A DNA stretch of 49,792 nucleotides from a virus: IMG/VR virus record IMGVR_UViG_3300037228_000070, positions 1 to 49,792 of that record. One strand, written 5' to 3'. Below are positions 168 to 46,534 of this stretch, piece after piece. The notes beneath the pieces are model-generated. The model was not told the DNA's origin, ran no database searches, and saw only the letters and a program-made list of their open reading frames with translations. Within the stretch, counting starts at the first letter, position 1; every line of letters starts with the position of its first letter. The translations under genes were made by a program, and so were the position numbers.

Positions 168-261
168 TTCGGTTGCGCTGACTGACTCCTCATTGCATTC
201 GTCGCCGAGCACAGAGGCTGCCTTCGCTGAACCCTCGGCACTGACGTTGGGCGCGGCATGA
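160..261 (+). CDS. 33-residue hypothetical protein, GTG start
   Basis: GTG at 160-162 is preceded by GGAGGA at 149-154 with 5-base spacing. The stop TGA at 259-261 overlaps the HNH start at 258 (ATGA). The product is Ser/Ala/Leu-rich with no recognisable motif. The good ribosome site and the coupled stop argue that this is a translated linker gene rather than spacer. Function unknown. Confidence 0.4.
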   Translation: MFDSVALTDSSLHSSPSTEAAFAEPSALTLGAA

Positions 262-785
262 TCGTCACGTTCGAGTCGTTAAACTGCCCGCTCGTCCCGA
301 AGCCGCACGGCATACCAGGCAAGTGCGACAAGTGCGCGGCGTCATTACCCCCACGCCGTCGGCGCTGGTGTTCAGACGAGTGCGCACGCGGGTTCTACCA
401 CGAGGCGGCGCGCAATCACGATTGGCCAGTAGCGCGCGAAGCGGCGCTGCATCGAGACGGTCATCGCTGCGTTCGGTGTGGCGCAAATAGCCAGCCACCG
501 CGCGAGGAGATTGATGCGCTGCGAACCGCCGCTCGTGGCGGCCACGCAAGTTACGACGCGCTCTATCGGCGTTATCAGCTTGAAGTCAACCACAAGGTCG
601 CGTGTATGGGACAACACGCGGAGCGATCGTGCGCGCACCACCTCGACAACCTTGAGACGCTGTGCGCGACCTGTCATAAGCGGACGACGGCAGAGCAGGC
701 TCGTGAGCGTGCGGACCAACGTCGCGGGCGCATCCCGTTGATGACCAGCGGCGGGTCCCTGTCGCACTGCATGGTGACGGCGTGA
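258..785 (+). CDS. HNH endonuclease with N-terminal zinc knuckle
   Basis: 175 residues. An N-terminal Cys-rich knuckle (C23, C26, C38, C42, with RRRRWCSD) precedes the HNH fold: CVRC (71-74), EVNH (H112), LDNLETLC and CATCH (C136, C139). The fold cuts DNA with a metal held at the His residues. It is a paralogue of the genes at 26589 and 35175, which share the same knuckle-plus-HNH plan. It lies alone among small early genes, typical of a freestanding homing-type nuclease, although packaging HNH enzymes look similar. Its last 13 codons lie in repeat A (747-790), which recurs at 49148. Confidence 0.85.
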   Translation: MIVTFESLNCPLVPKPHGIPGKCDKCAASLPPRRRRWCSDECARGFYHEAARNHDWPVAREAALHRDGHRCVRCGANSQPPREEIDALRTAARGGHASYDALYRRYQLEVNHKVACMGQHAERSCAHHLDNLETLCATCHKRTTAEQARERADQRRGRIPLMTSGGSLSHCMVTA

Positions 786-1726: not shown

Positions 1727-4700
1727 ATAGCAGCGTTGCCGTCCCAGTCGCGAGCGACAAGCCGACAATGGTGCCGGTCACGCTCGTTCCCGACGCGTTG
1801 ACCACCGTGATGCCGGTTGCCGTGCCGGTCGTGGTCGCGGGCCCGACGTAGCTCATGCCGCACGCGTAGGTCGTCGAGGACGTGTAGGCGACGGTCGCCG
1901 AGCAGGTGATGACGCCGACGGAGGTGTCCGTGCACGATGCGAAGGTCGGCTTCTTGCCGCCGATGGTCGTGGTCCCGGTGAACGCCGTCGTGCACGGATC
2001 GGTCAGCGTCGAGGCGGTCGTCACGCCGTAGTCGATGGTGCACGACCCCGACGAGCCGCCGATGTTCACGGCGCCAGTGGTCGTCGAGCGCGAGGCGCCC
2101 AAGTCGCCGGCGGTGAGGGTCGCGCCCGTGCCAGATCCAGCAGCGATGGAGCTCGTCCCCTTGACCGTGCTGGAGAACGCCGTTGCACAGGGATCGGTCA
2201 GTACCGACGAGGTGGTGACGCTCCAGTCCAGCGTGCAGGCACCGCCCGTGAATGCCAGCTTGTTATAGAGCAGGTTGGCGTAATTGGTCGTTCCGCCGTC
2301 GTAGACGCGCAGGCCGCCGGTCGAAGTGTTGCCGTAGTTGAGATTGACTTCGAAGCCGCCCGCGCTGGCGCCGTTGATGACGATTGAACCCGATGTGGTC
2401 GCGATGTACCCGCTCGTCGCGCCGATCTGCACGGCACCGAAGGTCGGAGCCGCGACGACGGCAACGCTTGGAGTCGTTCCCGAACCGACCGAGATATTTG
2501 CCCCTGCCGTGAGGCTAGTGACGCAGTCGCCTGCTGCGGAACTAATCGCCGTCGCAGACGACGCGCGCAAGCAATCGCCCGAGGTAAACGACGCCGAAGC
2601 GAACTGTCCGGCCGGAATGAGGGTGATGTTCGTCCCCGCCATCGTTGGAGCACCCGCCGAGAAGTTGCCCGATGCGTCACGCGCCACGATGGTCGAGGCG
2701 GTGTTCAGGTTCGTCGCATCGCTCACGATCGTGCCGGCAAGGGTGCCGTTGTACGAAGAGAGCGTTCCGGCGGATAGATGCGCGCCGAACGTGAGCGCCG
2801 GCAGTGTCCCGCCCAGTGCGGTACCGCTGATGGTGTCCGCAGCCAAGCTCGCAAGTGGAATCGACCCTGCGGTGATCCCCGACCCCGATCCGTTGAGCGT
2901 AGAGCCGTAGAGGCCACCGGAGACACCGAGGTCGCCGGCGTTGTCGATCGCGAGAACCTTCGTGCCGGTGTTCCCGATGCCGAGCACGTTGTTCGTGATC
3001 CCCGCGACCGTGCCGTCACCAGCCGAACCGACCGAGGTGTACCCAGTAGTCGCGACGGCTGCGTTTCCGAAGCGTAGCGTCCCGACCGAAGCGGTGCCCA
3101 GCGTCCCATAGCACAGCCAGCAGGAGACGACGTTCGTGCCGGTCTGGTCGACCGTGCCGGTCGTAACCGTGGTAAAGCTCGGCGTTGCCGTGTAGGCGGC
3201 GAGTTGCGTCCACCCCGAGCCGCTTGAGACAGCCAGCGCACCAAGATCGGTCCGATAGTAGATGCCGCCCGCTCCGGCGTTCGCCGTACCCGGATAGCTC
3301 GTGCCGTTGCCGACCTGAAAGGCGCCGCTCGCCGAGTTCGCGTGGATGGTTGCGACGACTGCGTTGCTGCCGTTTCGGAAGCGGGTGTCGCCGTAGACGT
3401 CAAGGGTGTTGTCGCCCGGCTGGATGTTGAGTCCGGCCGCCGATATGATCGTCCCCGTGCTCAGTTCGGCGAGCGTCGAGATGCCTGAGGCGTTGACGCC
3501 GTAGGGGAACTGGCACGGCAGGCTGACCGTCGGGCCGCAGACGTATGCCGTGACGGCCCCGGGCCCGTCGACATAGGGAATGACCGGGAGCGGTATGTTG
3601 CCCGGGATAACGAGCGGCCTGTTCGCGGTAGAGTCTCCAGTGTGGATCACCGCAAACATTGTCAGGTTGTCGGCAACGCTCAAGCCCTCAAATAGAATGT
3701 ACGACGCCTCGTGCCGCATCGTAACCGCATAGTTGTACTTACCGCTAGGCGATTCGGTGAAGCCGGAGTGGATTTTTACCGTCCCAACTCCGCCCCCGAA
3801 GGCGAACTGATCTCCCTGGAAGACGTACGGCGCTCCGTCTGGTTCGGAGGTCGAGCCCGAGTCCGCGACAATCGTCTCGGGGCCGATATTGATGTCGTTC
3901 GCGGCGGTATAGAACGTGTGAGCGTGTCTGATGTGCGAGAACGAATTGTAGGCCGCATAGCTTCCGTAGCCTTGAAAGAACGCCCCGGCTTGCGTGTTGA
4001 AGAACCCGGCCCAATGCGCGGTAGTGTTCATCGCGGTCGTCGTTGGGGTGTACGTCGTGGTGACGTGCTGGGCGTCCGTGAACCCCGAGATCGTTGAAAT
4101 AAAGGGAGCGATATAATTCGCGGTCGCCCCCGACACAGCGGTCGAAGCATTCACGCTCAGGCAGACGTCGTTGTTATCGGCCCAGCAGGTGATCGTGCCG
4201 GTGAGGTTCGCGCCGCCCGGCCCTGCGCCGATGACCGTGATGTTCGCGCCAATGAACGTGTACGAGATCGCCGGATCGCCCGAGCCGCCCTGGTTAATCT
4301 GGAGTTTGTTCCAGCCGTAGGTGGCGGTTGCGCCCGTGACGGCGGTGGTCGCGTTGAAGCTGACTTGCACGTCGTTGGCGTCCGAGTACGACATAATGAT
4401 GCCGCAGACTTGCGCCCCTGCAACGCCGACGCCGTTGACGCACACGTTCGATCCGACGTCGGATGCGACGAACGGCGGGTCCCCCGTTCCGCCACTGTTG
4501 ATCGTGAGCGTATTGGGCTGAATCGAGTGCGATGAGCAGCCCGAAGCATACGAGCACATCGTCGCGAAGGCGGCGGTTCGCAGCGCCATCGTGGCGTACG
4601 TCGCGGTGTCAGCCGCTCCGGCGTTCTGGACCGCAACGCTCCAGTTCAGGCCAGGCCGCGCCTCGGTGGCATCAAAGGGCGGGTCCCCAGCGCCGATCGC

Positions 4701-11132: not shown

Positions 11133-11388
11133 CGTCTACTGCCCAGCCTGCAAGTCGGTCTACCCCGCCGGGACGCGCGAGTGCTACCGCTGCAAGCGGC
11201 CCGGGGACACGACGGTGCGACGGCATTCCGCGCTGCTGCCGGTCGTCGACGTGGCGAAGTCGCTCGATGCGGTCGCGGCTGATCGGCCGTCCTTCCCGGC
11301 GGTGGCGGTTCACGAGGACGGTGACTCCGGGTTCGTCGCGCCGACGCAGGGCGGTTCTTCGCCACCGGAGCCGGTCGACATGCCGTGA
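11125..11388 (+). CDS. Zinc-ribbon protein
   Basis: 87 residues, ATG 11125 with AAGGAG about 9 bases before it. CPAC (C6, C9) and CYRC (C20, C23) form a short zinc ribbon. The remaining 60 residues are polar and probably disordered. The stop overlaps the next GTG (GTGA). It is one of three consecutive tiny Cys-rich proteins around the portal gene. Role unknown. Confidence 0.6.
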   Translation: MPDVYCPACKSVYPAGTRECYRCKRPGDTTVRRHSALLPVVDVAKSLDAVAADRPSFPAVAVHEDGDSGFVAPTQGGSSPPEPVDMP

Positions 11389-12224
11389 TCGTCCCCCGCT
11401 TCCGCACGCTGCTGCTGGAAGCGATCGACCATTTCGCGACGGCGGGCTACGCATCGCCAGCCGATCTGCAGGAGTGGGTCGCACGCCTTCACGCCGCGCT
11501 CGATCGCGAGTTGCTCGGCGACCCGGCCACGAAGGCGCTCGTCACCCAAGTCCTCACCTCGGTCTACAACCGCGAGATTCGGCTCGGCATCGGCAAGCGC
11601 GTGCCGGGTGTGTCGCGGTACACGCTCGACCGGGTAGCGCCGCAGTTGCGCGCCGAGCTCGACCGCCGCATCTTCGCGGGCGTGGATCTGATCCGCCTCA
11701 ACAAGCGGGCGGCCACGGAGAAGACGCTGCAGCGGTTCTCGGGCTGGGTGTCGTCGGTTCCGCCGGGCGGTTCAGGGCCGGCGGTCTCGAAGCGCGAGGT
11801 GGCGCGGGACGTCGGGAAGTCGGTCGCGCGGCTGAAGTTCGAGGCCCGGCGCGTTGCGATCGACATGGGCCATAAACTGAGTAGCGCGGTCAGCGCGACG
11901 GTGGCTATGGGCGAAGGCGCGATTGCTGCGACCTGGATGGACCGGGGCGCCCACGATAAGAGTTACAATGCCAGGCCCGAACATCTGGCGCGCTCCGGCA
12001 AGCTATTTCTTGTCCGAAACTCGTGGGCAATAAGCGACGGCTTAATCAAAAAGGGCGGCCTCATGTATACCGACGAAATAGAGCAGCCCGCAGAGCTTCC
12101 GTATTGCAGCTGCACCTATACCTACGTCGTCAGCCCCCGCGCGTTACCGCCAGAGCTATTGACGGCCAAGGGTAGGCTATGGGTTACCGGCGAGTCTCGG
12201 TCAAAAAGCGAGGCCAGGGCGTAG
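11385..12224 (+). CDS. Head morphogenesis protein (Mu gpF-like)
   Basis: 279 residues, GTG start. The C-terminal part (NARPEHLARSGKLF, then LPYCSCTYTYVV) matches the conserved end of the Mu-F/SPP1-gp7 minor head family, which attaches near the portal and enters the prohead. It lies between portal and protease/scaffold, as expected. The last 300 or so bases (from about 11940) are visibly richer in A/T than the rest of the gene and adjoin the inserted minus-strand cassette. Confidence 0.8.
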   Translation: MIVPRFRTLLLEAIDHFATAGYASPADLQEWVARLHAALDRELLGDPATKALVTQVLTSVYNREIRLGIGKRVPGVSRYTLDRVAPQLRAELDRRIFAGVDLIRLNKRAATEKTLQRFSGWVSSVPPGGSGPAVSKREVARDVGKSVARLKFEARRVAIDMGHKLSSAVSATVAMGEGAIAATWMDRGAHDKSYNARPEHLARSGKLFLVRNSWAISDGLIKKGGLMYTDEIEQPAELPYCSCTYTYVVSPRALPPELLTAKGRLWVTGESRSKSEARA

Positions 12225-12233
12225 TCAACGACC

Positions 12234-12323
12234 TTATCGCGTTTCTTTGAATTGCACGACAGGCGCGTGGATGCGCTTGACGGGAATCGCCGCCGAGCAT
12301 ACAGCGCAACTCGGCTTTCTCAT
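12234..12323 (-). pseudogene. Truncated copy of the small zinc-finger gene
   Basis: 29 codons. ATG at 12321-12323 overlaps the stop of the upstream minus gene (ATGA), and the stop is TAA at 12234-12236. The N-terminus (CAVCSAAIPVKRIHA) is clearly homologous to the protein at 12926-13075 (CAVCSTAIPIERVHA), but the second Cys pair (YCSEKC) is missing. A complete zinc site is therefore unlikely, so I call it a remnant, though it could still be expressed. Confidence 0.55.
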
Positions 12324-12523
12324 CGCTGTCGCACCGCGAATGCAGATGCTTTGTCCTCGGACACCTCTACAATAAGCCATCGGCCGCTGTGGAGAGGGTT
12401 CTCAGCGTCCAGCGTGATGGTTCCCCCGAGAACGAGGTCCGGCCGCTCGCGCAGGTCGTGAATCAGCACGCTCCCCGATCCGGGGTTGCCTCGGGGGAAG
12501 ATGAAATCGAAGGGAGGGATCAC
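12320..12523 (-). CDS. 67-residue hypothetical protein, reverse-strand cassette 1
   Basis: Start is GTG at 12521-12523. The -10 box of a strong minus-strand promoter (12531-12536) puts the transcript start almost on the GTG, so the message is probably leaderless. The protein is beta-rich (LVLGGTITLDAENP, GRWLIVEV) with no family I recognise. It is coupled by ATGA to the truncated zinc-finger gene. Reverse orientation inside the head operon with its own promoter marks it as a moron-like insertion. Confidence 0.55.
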   Translation of the reverse strand: MIPPFDFIFPRGNPGSGSVLIHDLRERPDLVLGGTITLDAENPLHSGRWLIVEVSEDKASAFAVRQR

Positions 12524-12530
12524 GCCGCCC

Positions 12531-12560
12531 AGTATAACCTCAAGGGGAGTACATCGTCAA
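12531..12560 (-). promoter_or_regulatory. Sigma70-type promoter of reverse cassette 1
   Basis: Read on the minus strand: TTGACG (12555-12560), 18-base spacer, TATACT (12531-12536). The spacer contains GTACTCCCCTT, nearly the same as GTACTACCCTT in the promoter of cassette 2. Confidence 0.7.
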
Positions 12561-12825
12561 CCCGCCGATTGCTGACCGCGAAGGATCGTGCCGCGCTTGG
12601 CTCGGATCGGGGTTGGTCTCAGCCTCGTAACCGGGCCCTGACCGAATCCTAAGACGACGCGGGCGCGCGCGAGGGAGAAAATCCGAGTTCGAACGCTGCG
12701 CTTTTTGCGGGCCGTTGTCGGTCGGCCAATCGTCCGTTCACTCGGTGCGCGCCGGTCTGCCGGTCGGCTTCTCGGGGAGCGCCTTTGGTCGGATGCGGGG
12801 TCGGTATGCGCCCTCTACGACAAAC
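12561..12825. other. Intergenic stretch between the two reverse cassettes
   Basis: No convincing gene on either strand. Open frames here are Arg-rich and unlike the neighbours. It holds the upstream flank of promoter 1 and ends at the terminator of cassette 2. Confidence 0.5.
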
Positions 12826-12851
12826 GAAAACGGCCCCCTTCCGGGAAGCCG
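12826..12851 (-). terminator. Rho-independent terminator of reverse cassette 2
   Basis: On the minus strand an 8-pair stem (CGGCTTCC with GGGGGCCG, including two G-T pairs) around a CGGAA loop is followed by TTTTC. It lies 75 bases after the stop of the zinc-finger gene. Confidence 0.6.
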
Positions 12852-12925
12852 CCGTCGCACCGCCACGCCGACCAAGGCGCTTGGGTCCGATCATACCAGA
12901 CCGGCGGCGATTGGACAAGGCGGGG

Positions 12926-13075
12926 CTACCCTTTAGCCCGCGCCCTCGCGCGCCGGACCGCCGCCGTGTTCTTGCATTTCTCGGAACAGTAGGTCGGCGC
13001 CGCGCCGCGCGACGTGGCGGCGTGGACGCGCTCGATCGGGATTGCCGTCGAGCAGACCGCGCACCGGGGCTTCAC
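12926..13075 (-). CDS. Small treble-clef zinc-finger protein
   Basis: 49 residues. GTG at 13073-13075 overlaps the stop of the gene before it (GTGA). Cysteines C5, C8, C30 and C34 (CAVC and CSEKC) form a complete zinc finger of the kind also found at the start of the HNH proteins here. The C-terminus is very basic (RRARARAKG), suggesting nucleic-acid binding. A truncated homologue lies at 12234-12323. It is the second gene of reverse cassette 2. Confidence 0.65.
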   Translation of the reverse strand: MKPRCAVCSTAIPIERVHAATSRGAAPTYCSEKCKNTAAVRRARARAKG

Positions 13076-13317
13076 GCCGCCCCGAACATCTGGCGGTATC
13101 CCTTCCACCCGGCGTAGTCGGTCTGGATGCCGACCAGGATCGCGAGCTCGATGTTGCCGCCGTTGTGGCGGTAGCCCTCGCGCACGACCATCGGCACGTT
13201 GCCGGCGCTGATCTGCGCCAGCCACGCGGAGCCCTGCTCCTTCATGTAGGTCGCCGGGCCGGAGATCGTTCCGTCCAGGTTGTAGGTGAAGGAGCCGACG
13301 GTCAGGGGAGCGTTCAT
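13072..13317 (-). CDS. 81-residue hypothetical protein, reverse-strand cassette 2
   Basis: ATG at 13315-13317 with GAAAGG upstream. The start lies about 35 bases after a near-consensus promoter. The sequence (VGSFTYNLDGTISGPATYM, IELAILVGIQTDY) has no family I recognise and is not evidently related to the first gene of cassette 1. It is transcribed against the late operon and is probably expressed independently of it, as morons are. Confidence 0.7.
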   Translation of the reverse strand: MNAPLTVGSFTYNLDGTISGPATYMKEQGSAWLAQISAGNVPMVVREGYRHNGGNIELAILVGIQTDYAGWKGYRQMFGAA

Positions 13318-13356
13318 GGCGGTGGCCTTTCGGGGGCGGAGGGTTTCTATGTCCCT

Positions 13357-13394
13357 AGTATACCGGAAGGGTAGTACATAGTCAAGGGCAGTAC
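13357..13394 (-). promoter_or_regulatory. Sigma70-type promoter of reverse cassette 2 with direct-repeat operator
   Basis: On the minus strand: TTGACT (13380-13385), 17-base spacer, TATACT (13357-13362). Two direct repeats on the plus strand, AAGGGTAGTAC (13367-13377) and AAGGGCAGTAC (13384-13394), are 17 bases apart and overlap the spacer and -35. Cassette 1 has one copy, AAGGGGAGTAC (12542-12552), at the equivalent place. Confidence 0.75.
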
Positions 13395-13440: not shown

Positions 13441-13533
13441 GTGAGCCCGGTCGAAAAGTTCGTCGTCGCGCTGGCCGCGGTCTTCCTGATCGGCGTTGCC
13501 GCGGCCGCGGTGATCCACGCGCCGTGTCGGTAG
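13441..13533 (+). CDS. 30-residue membrane mini-protein
   Basis: GTG at 13441 is preceded by CGAACGTCCCCGCCC, almost identical to the 15 bases before the ATG at 16900. The product is one transmembrane helix (about residues 6-25, VVALAAVFLIGVAAAAVI) with a single Cys near the end. It overlaps the next gene by 10 bases. No Shine-Dalgarno site is obvious. Function unknown. Confidence 0.4.
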   Translation: MSPVEKFVVALAAVFLIGVAAAAVIHAPCR

Positions 13534-15014
13534 CCGCCGTCGAGGAACCGACCTTCGAGACGCCGCCCGAGCACGCGACCGATCACGAAGTCGCCGAGGG
13601 CATCCGGGACGGCCGGTATGCGAGCCCGCAGCCGTACGGCGACTTCTGGCTGTTCGATCTGAGAATAACCGGGACCGGGATGGCCTATCGAGATGGCCTG
13701 GACGAGTGGGCGTTTCGTGACCCGGGAACCTGGTTGGATGATGATTTTCTGACGCGCTGCAACGGCCTCACCGTCACGTTCGGCCACCCCGAGCGCGCCG
13801 GGCTGAACGACCAGGAGTACCAGGACCGCGCGATCGGGTCGATCGTGCTGCCGTACCGCAAGGGCGACGAGGTACGCGGCGTAGCGAAGATCTTCAACGC
13901 CGACGCCGCTGACGTGATGCAGACGTCGCACCGCTCGACCAGCCCGGGTGTGACGCCCCCAAAGGGCTCCGAGGCCATCGTGCTTAAAGACGGCACGAAA
14001 GTTCTGGCGGAAGGGCTGCCGCTCATCCTGGACCACCTCGCGATCTGCGAGGCCGGCGTCTGGGACAAGGACGGGCCGCCCGACGGAATCCGGCTCGACG
14101 CTCTCACTCGAAAGGACCAGGCTGTGGCGGACAAAGACCTCGAGGCGGTCACGAAAGAGCGCGACGATGCGGTAGCCAAGCTCGACGAGTTCGAGAAGAA
14201 GGACAAGGCGCGCAAAGACGCCGCCGACGCCGCCGCGAAGAAAGACGCCGAGGAAACCGAGAAGAAAGCCGCCGCGGAAGCCGAGCGCGAAAAGGCCGAC
14301 AAAGCCAAAAAGGACGCGGCCGACTCGAAGAAGCGCGACTCGCGCAAGGACCGCCACGCGAAGCACGACGGCGACATCATGGACTGCTCGCGCTGCGACT
14401 CCGAGGAATCCGAAGAAGAAAAAGAGCGCAAAGAGCGCGACGACAAGGCCCGCAAGGATGCCGAGGCTGCCGCCAAAACGCCGGTCGACGCCGAGCGGGG
14501 AACGGAATTGCACGACTCCAAGCTGGCCGACCTAGAAGCGCGGTTCAAGCGCCAGAGCGAGCAGATCGACGCGATGCACGCGACCCCCTCGATCGAGGAC
14601 GCGAACGAGCTCGCGACCATCTGGGGCCGCTGGGATTCGCTCTACCAGATGCTGGGCGAGCCGTCGAAGCGCGCGTACCCGGGCGAGAAGCCGCGCGCGT
14701 TCCTGCGCCGGTGCGCGGACGGCGTGCGCCAGTACACGAACAGCTGGAAGAACTACACGTTCCACGACAGCCAGCAGCAGCAGGACTTCTCGCTGGTCGC
14801 CGACGCGATCTATCGCGAGGCGCTCGAACACTCGAAGCAGCCGATCACGGACAAGCCGGGCTTCCTGCGGGAAGTCGTGACGCATCCGCACGGCAAGACC
14901 CGCACGGAGTTCTTCGGCGATCATCGGACGGCGTGGCTCCCGTTCATGCACCCGACGAAGTTCGCGCTCACGAAGGTCAATCGTCCCACCGGCAGCGTCT
15001 ACGGCCGAGAGTAG
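13524..15014 (+). CDS. Prohead protease/scaffold fusion (DUF2213-like)
   Basis: 496 residues, GTG start. The N-terminal ~190 residues (TFGHPERAGLNDQEYQDRAIGS, TSPGVTPPKG, LDHLAICEAGV) match the DUF2213 phage family found before major capsid genes. Residues about 195-350 are an extremely Lys/Glu/Ala-rich coiled coil, as in scaffolds. A folded C-terminal segment follows (LATIWGRWDSLYQMLGE). I infer a self-cleaving protease with scaffold domain that shapes the prohead. The catalytic residues cannot be assigned from sequence alone. Confidence 0.75.
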   Translation: MSVAAVEEPTFETPPEHATDHEVAEGIRDGRYASPQPYGDFWLFDLRITGTGMAYRDGLDEWAFRDPGTWLDDDFLTRCNGLTVTFGHPERAGLNDQEYQDRAIGSIVLPYRKGDEVRGVAKIFNADAADVMQTSHRSTSPGVTPPKGSEAIVLKDGTKVLAEGLPLILDHLAICEAGVWDKDGPPDGIRLDALTRKDQAVADKDLEAVTKERDDAVAKLDEFEKKDKARKDAADAAAKKDAEETEKKAAAEAEREKADKAKKDAADSKKRDSRKDRHAKHDGDIMDCSRCDSEESEEEKERKERDDKARKDAEAAAKTPVDAERGTELHDSKLADLEARFKRQSEQIDAMHATPSIEDANELATIWGRWDSLYQMLGEPSKRAYPGEKPRAFLRRCADGVRQYTNSWKNYTFHDSQQQQDFSLVADAIYREALEHSKQPITDKPGFLREVVTHPHGKTRTEFFGDHRTAWLPFMHPTKFALTKVNRPTGSVYGRE

Positions 15015-26588: not shown

Positions 26589-27143
26589 ATGAGCATGCTC
26601 GACGCGGTTCCGGCTTCGTGCCCGTTTCGCCCGAATCTTCAGGCCGTTCCCGGCCGTTGCGGCCGCGTGGATTGTAACGCGCCACTCCCGCCGCGTCGCC
26701 GCCGCTGGTGCTCGGACCGCTGCGTATCGGCCGCCTACGAGGTCGCGTGGGAGAACCACTATTGGGGCAGCGCCCGCGACGCGGCACTCGAACGCGACGG
26801 CTACAAATGCGTTCGCTGCGGCGCTGACGGCGCAGTGCCGCAGGGCGAGAGGGACGCGATCGGGCCGATGCCGGATTTCCCCGCTGACCTGAAACCGCGC
26901 GACCGCAACACCTTCGCGCATTCAGACGCGGGCCGAGTCTTGCGGGAGAGATTGAGCGCGTGGCGCGACGCCTGGGAGGGGTTGCGGCTTCGCTTCCGCC
27001 TTGAAGTTAATCACATCGTCCCCGCCAACGGCGCGCACGGCGTTGTTTCGTGCGTTCACCACCTCGACAATATCGAAACGCTCTGTCACCCGTGCCACGT
27101 CAAGGTGACGAACGCGCAGCGAAACGCTAGGCGCAGCGCGTAG
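26589..27143 (+). CDS. HNH endonuclease, second copy
   Basis: 184 residues, starting directly after the previous stop and ending directly before the hub gene. N-terminal zinc knuckle (C24, C29, C41, C45 with RRRRWCSD), then CVRCGADG, LEVNHIV and HHLDNIETLCHPCH. Its start (VPASCP..P.LQ.VPGRC) closely matches the protein at 35175-35711. A freestanding nuclease wedged between two baseplate genes is typical of homing elements. Confidence 0.88.
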   Translation: MSMLDAVPASCPFRPNLQAVPGRCGRVDCNAPLPPRRRRWCSDRCVSAAYEVAWENHYWGSARDAALERDGYKCVRCGADGAVPQGERDAIGPMPDFPADLKPRDRNTFAHSDAGRVLRERLSAWRDAWEGLRLRFRLEVNHIVPANGAHGVVSCVHHLDNIETLCHPCHVKVTNAQRNARRSA

Positions 27144-30398: not shown

Positions 30399-31508
30399 AT
30401 GAGCTGGCTCACCACCGAGACGGGCCAGGCGCTCCTTACCGAATCGGGTGAACAGATACTCCTTGAGGGCGTGCCATATCTGCCACTGCAAACAACGATT
30501 TTGGCGTTTTTGTACGAGCAGTACAGCGACGACTCCGACCTCAACGCCTTCGTCGCCTCGTTCAACGCGCTCGCGCAGTCCTATCTCGACTGGTTCAACC
30601 AGACGCCGCTGGCGATCTACACGAACCCCAACATCGCGGGGCCGCTGCTCGACTGGATCGCGCAGGGCATCTACGGGATCTCGCGGCCGGTGTTCTCGTC
30701 GCAGACTACGCGGTATATCGCGGGCCTCAACTCGGGGCCGCTCAATGCCGGGCCGCTCAACGGCAGCACGTTCCTCGAAAGCGGGACGGCGACGATCGCG
30801 ACCGACGACTACTACAAGCGGGTGCTCACGTGGTGGCTGTACGCCGGGACATCGCGCCGGTTCAACGCCACGCTCCTGCGGCTGCGGGTCGCGCGGTTCC
30901 TGTTCGGCGTGAACGGCACCGACGTGACGCTCGACCAGGCGCAGACGGTTCACGTTCAGCCAGAATCGGTGACGCCGCCCGGGCCGCCGGTGCTATCCGA
31001 TACGACGGCCGGGGGCGCGATCGCGGCGCGGACGTACGGCGCGCGGGCCTCGTACGTCACGCCGTTGGGCGAGGGGCTGGCGGGGGCGGCGGCCGCGCTG
31101 ACCGTGCCGTTCAATTATCGGCTGGGCGTGGCGAGCCCACCGGCGGCGAACGGTGCGACCAGCTGGAACGCCTACGTCGGCATCCTGTCGACGAACCCCG
31201 GGAAGTTCATCGCGGGCCTCAACAGCGGGCCGGTCAACGGGATGCCGGTGAACGGGACGAATAAGCGCGGGGTCGCACCGCCGACCCGGCAGAACGCCAC
31301 GCCGATCCCGATCGGCACCGCCTGGCTCGAGCCGACGAGCGGACTGATCCCCGGGCTCCCGCTGCCGACCCAGGACGAGACGAACGCGCCTGGTAACTAC
31401 ATAATTACTTTGCCACCAGGAACGGCGTCAACTATCTTCGAGCAGGCCATGTCGCAGTCTCTGCTGGCTTTTCCGTTTCAACTTTCGGCGACGGTCGTCA
31501 TATCCTGA
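30399..31508 (+). CDS. Tail protein I-like/fibre-connecting protein
   Basis: 369 residues, ATG 30399. After the LLTESGEQILLE motif, residues about 30-190 (YDLDWFNQ-like, LLDWIAQGIYGISRP, YYKRVLTWWLYAGTSRRFN) resemble tail protein I and related wedge-tip proteins. The C-terminal half is beta-rich with two copies of an IAGLNSGP.N..P.NG repeat (near 30718 and 31208). It probably attaches the fibre. The last 120 bases are A/T-richer. Confidence 0.65.
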   Translation: MSWLTTETGQALLTESGEQILLEGVPYLPLQTTILAFLYEQYSDDSDLNAFVASFNALAQSYLDWFNQTPLAIYTNPNIAGPLLDWIAQGIYGISRPVFSSQTTRYIAGLNSGPLNAGPLNGSTFLESGTATIATDDYYKRVLTWWLYAGTSRRFNATLLRLRVARFLFGVNGTDVTLDQAQTVHVQPESVTPPGPPVLSDTTAGGAIAARTYGARASYVTPLGEGLAGAAAALTVPFNYRLGVASPPAANGATSWNAYVGILSTNPGKFIAGLNSGPVNGMPVNGTNKRGVAPPTRQNATPIPIGTAWLEPTSGLIPGLPLPTQDETNAPGNYIITLPPGTASTIFEQAMSQSLLAFPFQLSATVVIS

Positions 31509-32059
31509 TGTGTGAACATTGCGGCGAGCCCATCATAGGGCGCAGAAGTCTCGCCCGGTTTTGTTCTGATGGATGTCGCCGGAAGGCGTACAATGCAGCG
31601 CACCTCAAACCCGTGGCGCTCTCCTGTAAGGCTTGCGGGAGTGACATAGTAGGGCGCGGCAACCGCGCGATCTATTGCTCAAATAAGTGCGCTATTGGTG
31701 CATATCGAGACTGCGGACTCGAAGCTAAAAAAGCGGCGCGGTGGCGCAACCGGAATCACGATTACATTCGGGACAAGCTGCACCATATGGGCGATGGCGG
31801 CTTCGAGAGGATGTACGTCGCCCAATGCGGTTCATGCTTCTGCTGCGGCGAAGTATTCGGGGAAACCACGCGCGTCTGCGTTGACCACGACCACGCCTGC
31901 TGCCCCGGGACTTACTCGTGCGGGAAGTGTGTCAGGGCGCTGGTTTGCAGAAGATGCAACATAGCAATCGGCTTTGTAGAGACGCGAGGCCGTGACGTTA
32001 CCCGTTACCTCGATCTACTGGGAGGCGTCACATGGCGTTCATCTTCGCAAATAATGTAA
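31508..32059 (+). CDS. Recombination endonuclease VII-like nuclease
   Basis: 183 residues, ATG 31508 sharing a base with the previous stop. Two N-terminal CxxC knuckles (C2/C5, C40/C43 with partners) precede the endonuclease VII core: C107, C110, VDHDH (125-129) and VRALVCRRCNIAIGFV (C147, C150, N151). The T4 gp49 family resolves Holliday junctions, but freestanding copies also act as homing nucleases. Its sequence is clearly A/T-richer than its neighbours and it overlaps the fibre gene by 28 bases. Confidence 0.85.
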   Translation: MCEHCGEPIIGRRSLARFCSDGCRRKAYNAAHLKPVALSCKACGSDIVGRGNRAIYCSNKCAIGAYRDCGLEAKKAARWRNRNHDYIRDKLHHMGDGGFERMYVAQCGSCFCCGEVFGETTRVCVDHDHACCPGTYSCGKCVRALVCRRCNIAIGFVETRGRDVTRYLDLLGGVTWRSSSQIM

Positions 32060-35163: not shown

Positions 35164-35192
35164 CCGCCTCGGACTCAATGCCGGGGCGGTTT
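35164..35192 (+). terminator. Rho-independent terminator of the late operon
   Basis: CCGCCTCGG pairs with CCGGGGCGG (one T-G pair) around an ACTCAATG loop, followed by TTTCG. It lies 60 bases after the last late gene and overlaps the 3' end of the convergent HNH gene. Confidence 0.7.
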
Positions 35193-35711
35193 CGCGTTGC
35201 TGGGCCGCGCGCTGCGTTGCTCGTTCGTCACCTTGACGTGGCACGGGTGACAGAGCGTTTCGAGGTTGTCGAGATGATTGTGACAGCCCGCCGCGTACCC
35301 GCCACCGTTGCGCGGCTCGATATGGTTGACCTCAAGCTGGTAGCGGTTCCACACGCGGTCACGGCGTTCGATGCGCGCTCGAATCGCACGTAGCGGCACC
35401 GCCTTGTCCCCGTACTCGTTCAGCGACGGCTCGGGTCCGCACGCATCGAGTTCGGCCTGCGGTGGCCGTCCGTCAGCGCCGCACCGAACACACTTGCCGC
35501 CGTCGCGCTGAATCGCGGCTCGACGCGCGGCGTTCCAGTCGTGCTGATCGTTAAACACGCGATAGGCAGCCAGGCCGCAGGCGTCAGAGCACCAGCGGCG
35601 GCGCATCTTCGGCAGCGGCTTGTCGCACTCGATGAGTGCGCAGCGGCCCGGTACTGTTTGGAGTTTTGGCTTGTGGGGGCACGAAGCCGGAACGCGGTCA
35701 ATCGCACTCAC
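35175..35711 (-). CDS. HNH endonuclease, third copy
   Basis: 178 residues, GTG start. Zinc knuckle (RRWCSDAC), CVRCGADG, LEVNHIEP and HNHLDNLETLCHPCH complete an HNH fold. Its opening VPASCPHKPKLQTVPGRC is nearly that of the copy at 26589. It is the last gene of the leftward operon and convergent with the late operon. Confidence 0.88.
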   Translation of the reverse strand: MSAIDRVPASCPHKPKLQTVPGRCALIECDKPLPKMRRRWCSDACGLAAYRVFNDQHDWNAARRAAIQRDGGKCVRCGADGRPPQAELDACGPEPSLNEYGDKAVPLRAIRARIERRDRVWNRYQLEVNHIEPRNGGGYAAGCHNHLDNLETLCHPCHVKVTNEQRSARPSNAKPPRH

Positions 35712-45631: not shown

Positions 45632-45904
45632 TCAGGTGGCGGTGCGCCCCGCCCGGCTTCGGTCGGCCAGGTCGGCCCGGTAGGCGGCAAGCACCTCGGC
45701 CTTCGCCGCCGACACAGCCTCTGGGTCGTCCAGCGACCCGCCGCGCAGGGCGACCAGGGCGCGGGCGAGCGGCTCATGGTAATAGGGCACCGGAAGGTGC
45801 CGGCCGACCCTCCAGCCCCAAGCCGAAACACGGCTGACGCCGACCGAATCGGCGAGTTCGCTGAGACGGAAGGGGTCGAGGAGTCTCGGGATCGCATCGG
45901 CCAT
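45632..45904 (-). CDS. Small HTH regulator, repressor/Cro-type
   Basis: 90 residues, ATG at 45902-45904. The N-terminal half (FRLSELADSVGVSRVSAWGWRVG) is a helix-turn-helix of the Cro/CI class, the rest is helical. The transcript from the -10 at 45912-45917 would begin within a base or two of the ATG, so the mRNA is probably leaderless, like lambda cI from PRM. It likely binds the shared region 45904-45991 and controls both promoters. No peptidase domain and no integrase, so lysogeny is not shown. Confidence 0.7.
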   Translation of the reverse strand: MADAIPRLLDPFRLSELADSVGVSRVSAWGWRVGRHLPVPYYHEPLARALVALRGGSLDDPEAVSAAKAEVLAAYRADLADRSRAGRTAT

Positions 45905-45911
45905 GCTCCCA

Positions 45912-45940
45912 ATGTTACCTTATCGTTAGCCCGTTGACAA
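45912..45940 (-). promoter_or_regulatory. Leftward early promoter
   Basis: On the minus strand: TTGTCA (45935-45940), 17-base spacer, TAACAT (45912-45917). Its -35 overlaps that of the rightward promoter on the opposite strand. Confidence 0.65.
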
Positions 45941-45962
45941 GGGGATGTTAAGCGATTATGAT
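45934..45962 (+). promoter_or_regulatory. Rightward early promoter
   Basis: TTGACA (45934-45939), 17-base spacer, TATGAT (45957-45962): near-consensus sigma70. TGCTCCCA (45904-45911) and TGGGAGCA (45962-45969) are perfect inverted repeats placed symmetrically around the joint -35 region and may be operator half-sites. Confidence 0.85.
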
Positions 45963-45991
45963 GGGAGCACCTTCTGCGAGAGGACGCCAAC

Positions 45992-46534
45992 GTGACCGAA
46001 ACCGCCCCCGCCTTCACCCCCGACGAGCTCGCCGCGCCGATCCTCGCCGACGAGCCCGACACCGCCGACGCCCCGCTCGGAGCCGAGACGTGGACGACTA
46101 CGGTCGGCCAGCTGATCGAGACGCAGAAGGGCGACACCCGGGTTGCTGGCGCCCTGCGGCAAATCCTCGACGGCGCGCTAGTCGCGACGATCACCGGCAG
46201 CGGCGGGACCGGGATCATCCGGTTCACGCGCCCGACGCCTACCGGCGACCTGGACGCCAAGACGGTCGCGCGCTACCGCAAGGACGGCCAGAGCGCCTAC
46301 TTCCATGAGGCGCGCTCGCTGGCCGGGCTCCCCGAGCTCGTCGACTGCGACGGCTGCGAGCCGGGGATCGTCCAGCGCGTCGTGGACGACTACGCCGACG
46401 ACACCGGGCCGTCGTACAAGGCGGTCGGTGGGTGCTCCATCGTGATCGAGCAGCCGCACCGGCTGACCGATACTGGCGAGCAGTTCGCGGTCCGCTCGCA
46501 CTACTGCCCAGTTTGTACGGCGGCTCGCGCATGA
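45992..46534 (+). CDS. First gene of the rightward early operon, unknown
   Basis: 180 residues, GTG 45992 with AGAGGA upstream and a leader of about 23 bases. Acidic N-terminus, a middle resembling a small beta domain (GGTGIIRFTRPTPTGDLDAKTV), then four Cys in pairs (CDGC and CPVC), perhaps a zinc site. First position behind the strongest promoter suggests a host-takeover or antirestriction role. No family recognised. Confidence 0.65.
   Translation: MTETAPAFTPDELAAPILADEPDTADAPLGAETWTTTVGQLIETQKGDTRVAGALRQILDGALVATITGSGGTGIIRFTRPTPTGDLDAKTVARYRKDGQSAYFHEARSLAGLPELVDCDGCEPGIVQRVVDDYADDTGPSYKAVGGCSIVIEQPHRLTDTGEQFAVRSHYCPVCTAARA

Follow-up and report, generated by a model that had tools for sequence, protein, structure and literature searches.

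The window analysed here, which is the whole 49,792-base record of an uncultured phage, contains two leftward gene units between its Mu-F-like gene and its protease/scaffold gene (Table 1). In the explanation that we favour, to which we give a probability of about 0.55, this interval is a hypervariable accessory-gene slot holding exchanged cassettes of the moron type, each consisting of a variable first gene and a probably autoregulatory zinc-finger gene in an acr-aca-like build. What the genes themselves display is the slot, a shared promoter, swapped first genes, a coupled and conserved zinc-finger gene, an HNH endonuclease gene in the corresponding unit of a sibling phage (contig L004), and an HNH relic in the window.

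Table 1. Positions of the slot borders and of the elements of the two leftward units in the window.
Feature	Position	Strand	Remarks
Mu-F-like head morphogenesis gene, left border of the slot	11385..12224	+	phrog_324, 2.5e-11
HNH gene 3' end relic and adjoining head-gene DNA	12150..12264	-	98% identity over 115 bp to L004
Unit 1 zinc-finger stub, 29 aa, first Cys pair only	12234..12323	-	ATGA overlap with the stop of the first gene
Deletion junction in GCCTGTCG	~12264-12257	-	
Unit 1 first gene, 67 aa	12320..12523	-	GTG start
Unit 1 promoter, TTGACG-18-TATACT	12531..12560	-	10/12 sigma-70 matches
Single motif copy in unit 1 promoter, GTACTCCCCTT	12552-12542	-	
Terminator-like hairpin after unit 2	12829..12853	-	
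Weaker promoter-like site between the units, TTGTCC-17-TATGAT	12890..12918	-	TG-extended
Unit 2 zinc-finger gene, CxxC...CxxxC, 49 aa	12926..13075	-	GTGA-coupled to the first gene
Unit 2 first gene, 81 aa	13072..13317	-	
Unit 2 promoter, TTGACT-17-TATACT	13357..13385	-	10/12 sigma-70 matches
Two direct GTACTnCCCTT copies in unit 2 promoter	13394-13384 and 13377-13367	-	17-bp period
Protease/scaffold-type gene, right border of the slot	13524..15014	+	phrog_530 head maturation protease, 1.6e-5; phrog_6216, 2.2e-98

A variable slot between head genes

The Mu-F-like protein is 94% identical to that of L004 and 57-66% identical to those of contigs L040-L045, L048 and L068. In L040, L041 and L042 the Mu-F match and the protease match lie 295-580 bp apart, and in others 827-2346 bp, the largest of these values being that of L044; the distance is 1374 bp in the window and 2652 bp in L004. 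Border genes that are adjacent or nearly so in relatives, with a variable insert between them, are one mark of a moron, and this is the arrangement found here.

The contents of the slot differ from contig to contig. L044 carries a leftward C5 methyltransferase gene, L048 a leftward 100-aa gene, and L045 a leftward 52-aa gene ATGA-coupled to the gene of an Arc-like regulator; L004 has a Dam-type methyltransferase gene on the other strand, in addition to the cassette described below. The idea, put forward in the earlier note, that the slot exchanges cargo and keeps its promoter and zinc finger is thus borne out, since in L004 this chassis is combined with yet another first gene, unrelated to the two of the window, and other accessory genes occupy the slot across the family.

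Two side observations concern the Mu-F-like gene. In both the window and L004 its C-terminal residues (12185-12224 in the window) are antisense to the apparent end of an HNH gene, reading SLFD...PV, which is also found in the L068 HNH protein; the original end of this head gene may have been replaced when an HNH gene was inserted. In L026 (~3438-4610) the Mu-F-like match is interrupted, after a conserved Cys, by about 950 bp reading CFPGDSRIPF..., which looks like an intein.

Promoters and the GTACTnCCCTT motif

Two predicted near-consensus promoters were indeed found where the earlier note had placed them. In the 49.8 kb no more than three sites reach 10/12 or more sigma-70 matches, two of them being the cassette promoters, whereas block shuffles contain 0.8 such sites on average and never more than 2. 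The spacer sequence common to both promoters, TTGACNATGTACTNCCCTTNNGG, has two exact matches in the window and none in the shuffles, a post hoc count, as the pattern was read off the two promoters themselves. The motif GTACTnCCCTT is present in three exact copies, starting at 12552, 13377 and 13394 on the minus strand, all within the cassette promoters; no other copy with at most one mismatch was found elsewhere in the window, and none in 20 Markov-model windows, although this count is descriptive because the motif was first noticed on these promoters. The two direct copies of unit 2 (13367..13394) overlap the -35 box and the spacer, an arrangement repeated in L004, and form a candidate operator. 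Unit 1 has a single copy of the motif, which counts against the favoured explanation.

The promoter pattern was found in viral_contigs on the L004 contig only, and had no match in genome_contigs or in 149 genomes of the phylum to which contig L017 belongs (see below). A relaxed match in L135 was rejected as chance, being AT-rich DNA ahead of an unrelated gene.

The third site with at least 10/12 matches, at 45934 on the plus strand (11/12), lies in a divergent switch-like region. There, at 45632-45962, a 90-aa gene on the minus strand stands beside back-to-back promoter-like sites; it has no family match, and by eye it may encode a helix-turn-helix protein. This region is likely the main switch of the phage. 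The cassette motif is absent from 45900-46000 and, as far as the sequence tells, is therefore not the operator of that switch.

Unit 2 had been described as complete and equipped with its own terminator. Its genes are intact and a hairpin follows them, but such a hairpin is no rarer than chance would have it: four hairpins of terminator grade were found, against 3.0 expected in DNA of this kind. The region 12890-12740 folds little better than its shuffles (z -1.4), and Rfam gave no match. Between the units (12890-12770), a long inverted repeat, AGCGCCTTGGTCGG...CCGACCAAAGGCGCT, comes after the weaker promoter-like site.

Genes of the two units

In both units the small zinc-finger gene is coupled to the first gene by overlapping stop and start codons, as reported before. 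The transcript of unit 2 would have a leader of about 33 bases containing AAAGG. Coding is supported by the GC content at the three codon positions both for its 81-aa gene (0.57/0.48/0.95) and for its zinc-finger gene (0.58/0.68/0.90). The zinc finger matches zf-CGNR (5e-4) and DUF2116 (0.0016), in both cases below the Pfam cut-offs. No relatives of the 81-aa protein were found in the viral_contigs and phages collections. Four weak matches (best E 0.005) in the 149 genomes of the L017 phylum were treated as chance; two of them were inspected, one being a frame that by eye looks like a pyridoxamine-oxidase type and the other a long unrelated frame. The first genes of the two units differ, as stated earlier, with no mutual match at E 0.01, and single-sequence structure predictions for their products (mean pLDDT 48 and 45) were too poor for a fold search.

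In unit 1 the GTG codon of the 67-aa gene lies directly at the predicted start of the transcript, which makes the unit nearly leaderless. GC by codon position (0.69/0.46/0.71) gives this gene weaker coding support than the genes of unit 2, and its product belongs to no family in Pfam, PHROGs, PADLOC or NCBIfam. The second Cys pair of the zinc finger is missing, in agreement with the earlier description. The view that this copy is decaying or diverging holds in so far as the gene is truncated; its tail is not the product of drift but the trace of a deletion. Past about residue 19 the stub reads 'PVVQFKETR', the 3' end of the L004 HNH gene read out of frame, and from GCCTGTCG on 113 of 115 bases are identical to L004. 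Translated, the relic is 95% identical to the L004 HNH protein over residues 212-232 of the latter. It also aligns, at 52% over 21 residues (E 0.008), with the C-terminus of the distant HNH protein of L068, which argues that the relic is derived from an HNH gene and is not mere shared intergenic DNA. The L004 zinc-finger gene contains CCCTGTCG at the place matching the unit 1 junction, so that a deletion across this short homology would explain the fusion of zinc finger and HNH tail. Unit 1 would then be a deletion derivative of a cassette that once had an HNH gene and lost it together with the end of the zinc-finger gene; the junction is visible in the DNA, and the direction of change is what we infer.

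The sibling cassette and exchange of units

A search of related phages for the promoter together with the zinc-finger gene, as the earlier note had proposed, revealed a third unit in L004, whose head genes are 87-94% identical to those of the window. This unit occupies the same slot. Its promoter, TTGACT-17-TATACT, likewise contains the motif in tandem (second copy GTACAACCCTA); its first gene, of 87 aa, is related to neither first gene of the window, and its 50-aa zinc finger is 63% identical to that of unit 2. The unit also includes a component absent from the earlier note, a 257-aa HNH endonuclease gene (HNH_5, 6e-10), the GTG start of which overlaps the stop of the zinc-finger gene. Cassettes of this exact design thus number three, in two phages, and combine three mutually unrelated first genes with a related zinc finger that would bind DNA and act as a regulator. 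This small number, and the lack of any recognisable relative for all three first genes, count against the favoured explanation.

Between the window and L004, dS is 0.21-0.42 for the backbone (the portal, Mu-F and protease genes and the next head gene). For the zinc finger of unit 2 against that of L004 dN is 0.35 and dS 1.64, and for unit 1 against unit 2 dN is 0.20 and dS 1.08 over 18 codons, values that are rough owing to the short stretches. That dN is lower than dS indicates a finger under selection. The excess of zinc-finger dS (about 1.1-1.6) over that of the backbone (0.2-0.4) indicates that the cassettes were exchanged and not recently duplicated; the simple duplication previously proposed for the two units finds no support in it. 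On these comparisons cassettes have been exchanged among related phages, and those of the window are most likely older than the split between the window and L004 and were brought in separately, their zinc fingers being either old, separately acquired copies or the outcome of a very old duplication.

Relatives of the phage and possible host

The capsid protein is 85% identical to that of L003, 93% identical over a fragment to that of L004, 56-66% identical to those of several other contigs, and 41-49% identical to those of Klebsiella, Yersinia, Shewanella, Pantoea and other phages. In L003, the next relative by this protein, neither the cassette nor the zinc finger was recognisable, and no Mu-F gene that would delimit the slot was identified. 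No tyrosine or serine integrase or resolvase domain was found in the record.

Contig L017, with a capsid protein 55% identical to that of the window, is binned in a genome of Candidatus Eremiobacterota, and a host in this phylum is possible, a single binned contig being weak evidence. Genomes counted from the tables had the zinc finger at E <=0.001 in 12 of the 149 genomes of the phylum and in 1 of 141 genomes of Alphaproteobacteria; the capsid protein was found in one of the 149, and no relatives of the HNH protein were found in them at 1e-10. Weak finger matches in L016 and in Streptomyces phage mu1/6 were rejected, as they lie in other contexts and lack the promoter.

Related fingers also occur in the phylum outside such cassettes. 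In L124 (1471-2507), L125 (1620-584, reverse), L129 and L130 the finger forms the N-terminal part of a protein of 150-157 aa, the gene of which overlaps a nucleotidyltransferase gene (DUF6036, 6e-10 in L125); the two may form a toxin-antitoxin or defence pair. Another coupled pair was seen in L127 (798-1351), where a finger gene of 55 aa and the start of an ASCH-like gene overlap. Short fingers occur inside HNH proteins and in other contexts as well, so the fold alone does not imply a regulatory role.

Alternative explanations

The units could instead be parts of an HNH homing element, in which promoter, zinc finger and HNH gene are mobile, the first gene is a passenger of no use of its own to the phage and the window copies are remnants left after loss of the HNH gene; we see this as possible, though improbable. 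The coupling of the L004 HNH gene directly behind the zinc finger, the HNH tail kept in the window and the HNH gene in the L068 slot (40% identical to that of L004 and directed rightward, the opposite way) all fit such an element. So do four more HNH/endonuclease VII genes of the window, at 258-785 (+), 26589-27143 (+), 31508-32059 (+) and 35175-35711 (-), each with an N-terminal Cys-pair finger and three of them 41-52% identical to each other, which make this phage rich in free-standing nucleases. Unit 2, however, has no HNH trace downstream of its zinc finger, yet its reading frame and promoter are intact; in T4 seven free-standing endonucleases lack a dedicated promoter (PMC2988022), and it would be unusual for a first gene to precede the nuclease. 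The window slot itself holds only the HNH tail and no intact HNH gene, and so does not qualify as a homing-endonuclease locus.

Less probable still is a toxin-antitoxin-like pair that serves addiction or superinfection exclusion, in which the small first gene is the toxin or antitoxin and the coupled DNA-binding protein its autoregulating partner. The translational coupling of two small genes and a promoter of the autoregulation type would suit it, as would the Arc-like regulator pair of the L045 slot, which has a ParD_like match and a similar counterpart in L068, and the module-like pairing of the 150-157 aa finger protein with the DUF6036 nucleotidyltransferase. We consider it unlikely, as none of the first genes matched a toxin or antitoxin family, and unit 1 has kept its first gene open despite a truncated partner, which would hardly be expected of a toxin without its antitoxin. 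It is very improbable that the first genes encode ordinary accessory proteins of the virion or of head assembly, such as decoration proteins, and lie on the opposite strand by chance: their location among head genes and a very weak match of the 81-aa protein to the head decoration family phrog_5455 (E 0.28) stand against the opposite strand and own promoters, their absence from a sibling with 87-94% identical head genes, and the lack of anything shared among the three first genes.

Proposed function of the cassettes

Under the favoured explanation of exchanged moron-type cassettes, host RNA polymerase would transcribe the cassette on entry of the DNA. The first gene product would counteract a host function, a defence being the likeliest, and the promoter would be shut off by binding of the zinc-finger protein to GTACTnCCCTT. 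The HNH gene behind the zinc finger could drive exchange by cutting cassette-free relatives. For early transcription, autorepression, an anti-defence role and HNH-driven movement, each of them a proposal, the literature offers support by analogy only.

An accessory gene that is antisense to lytic genes and has its own promoter is characteristic of morons (PMC7067206), and in archaeal viruses anti-defence genes have been traced by way of a strong promoter that they share (PMC11065993). The accessory region G of Mu-like Pseudomonas phages holds anti-CRISPR genes, and the mechanism by which such cassettes are acquired has been called mysterious (PMC4378225). Aca proteins repress their own operon via sites inside the promoter (PMC9410906). 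In T4, free-standing homing endonucleases are found between other genes, and I-TevI acts as a repressor of its own promoter (PMC2988022); homing can also bring neighbouring genes along (PMC12724721).

A wider reading is that of a modular anti-defence platform in phages of a little-studied group of bacteria, possibly Eremiobacterota, with a constant promoter-operator, a zinc-finger autorepressor as the counterpart of Aca, plug-in anti-defence genes and an HNH enzyme that moves the cassette; this we hold to be doubtful. Regulator genes that stay constant while their neighbours change are among the best baits for anti-defence genes. If the zinc finger is such a regulator, the finger together with the GTACTnCCCTT promoter would be a new bait for phages of hosts with unexplored defences and counter-defences. 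The HNH gene that follows the finger gene would then be relevant to how cassettes of this sort are moved.

Comparison with known systems

Anti-defence genes in docking sites of other phages are known; the cassettes described here resemble those sites and are not new in kind. In Pseudomonas phage JBD30, acrF1 and aca1 (gp35-gp36) occupy the corresponding slot, from the minor head/neck genes to the head protease gene. The window units share with this operon the slot, a small variable first gene and an overlapping small gene, here for a putative DNA-binding regulator, and they have a predicted promoter of their own that likewise contains repeat sites. The JBD30 genes, however, lie on the head-gene strand, while the window units are on the opposite one. 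Two further differences count against the favoured explanation. Known Aca families are helix-turn-helix proteins, whereas the window encodes a zinc finger with weak matches to zf-CGNR and DUF2116; acr-aca operons have inverted repeats in the core promoter, whereas the repeats here are direct. CRISPR inhibition is proven for the acr-aca operon and is at most a possible activity of the present cassettes; with a putative regulator not of a known Aca type and direct repeats, they are not filed as an acr-aca operon.

Free-standing HNH genes, such as the mob genes of T4 and the HNH genes of Skunavirus, have their parallel in the intergenic HNH genes of L004 and L068 in the same slot and in the degraded relic of the window. 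The L004 gene differs from them in that it comes after a promoter, a cargo gene and a distinct small zinc-finger gene, and would be a candidate homing enzyme. Like the morons of lambdoid-type phages, the units lie between genes that are adjacent in relatives, and each has a predicted promoter of its own, with a possible terminator after unit 2; unlike them, each unit comprises two genes in a conserved chassis with swapped cargo, and its composition is not clearly foreign. The units would work like a moron slot with an acr-aca-like layout and are filed as accessory cassettes at a head-gene hotspot.
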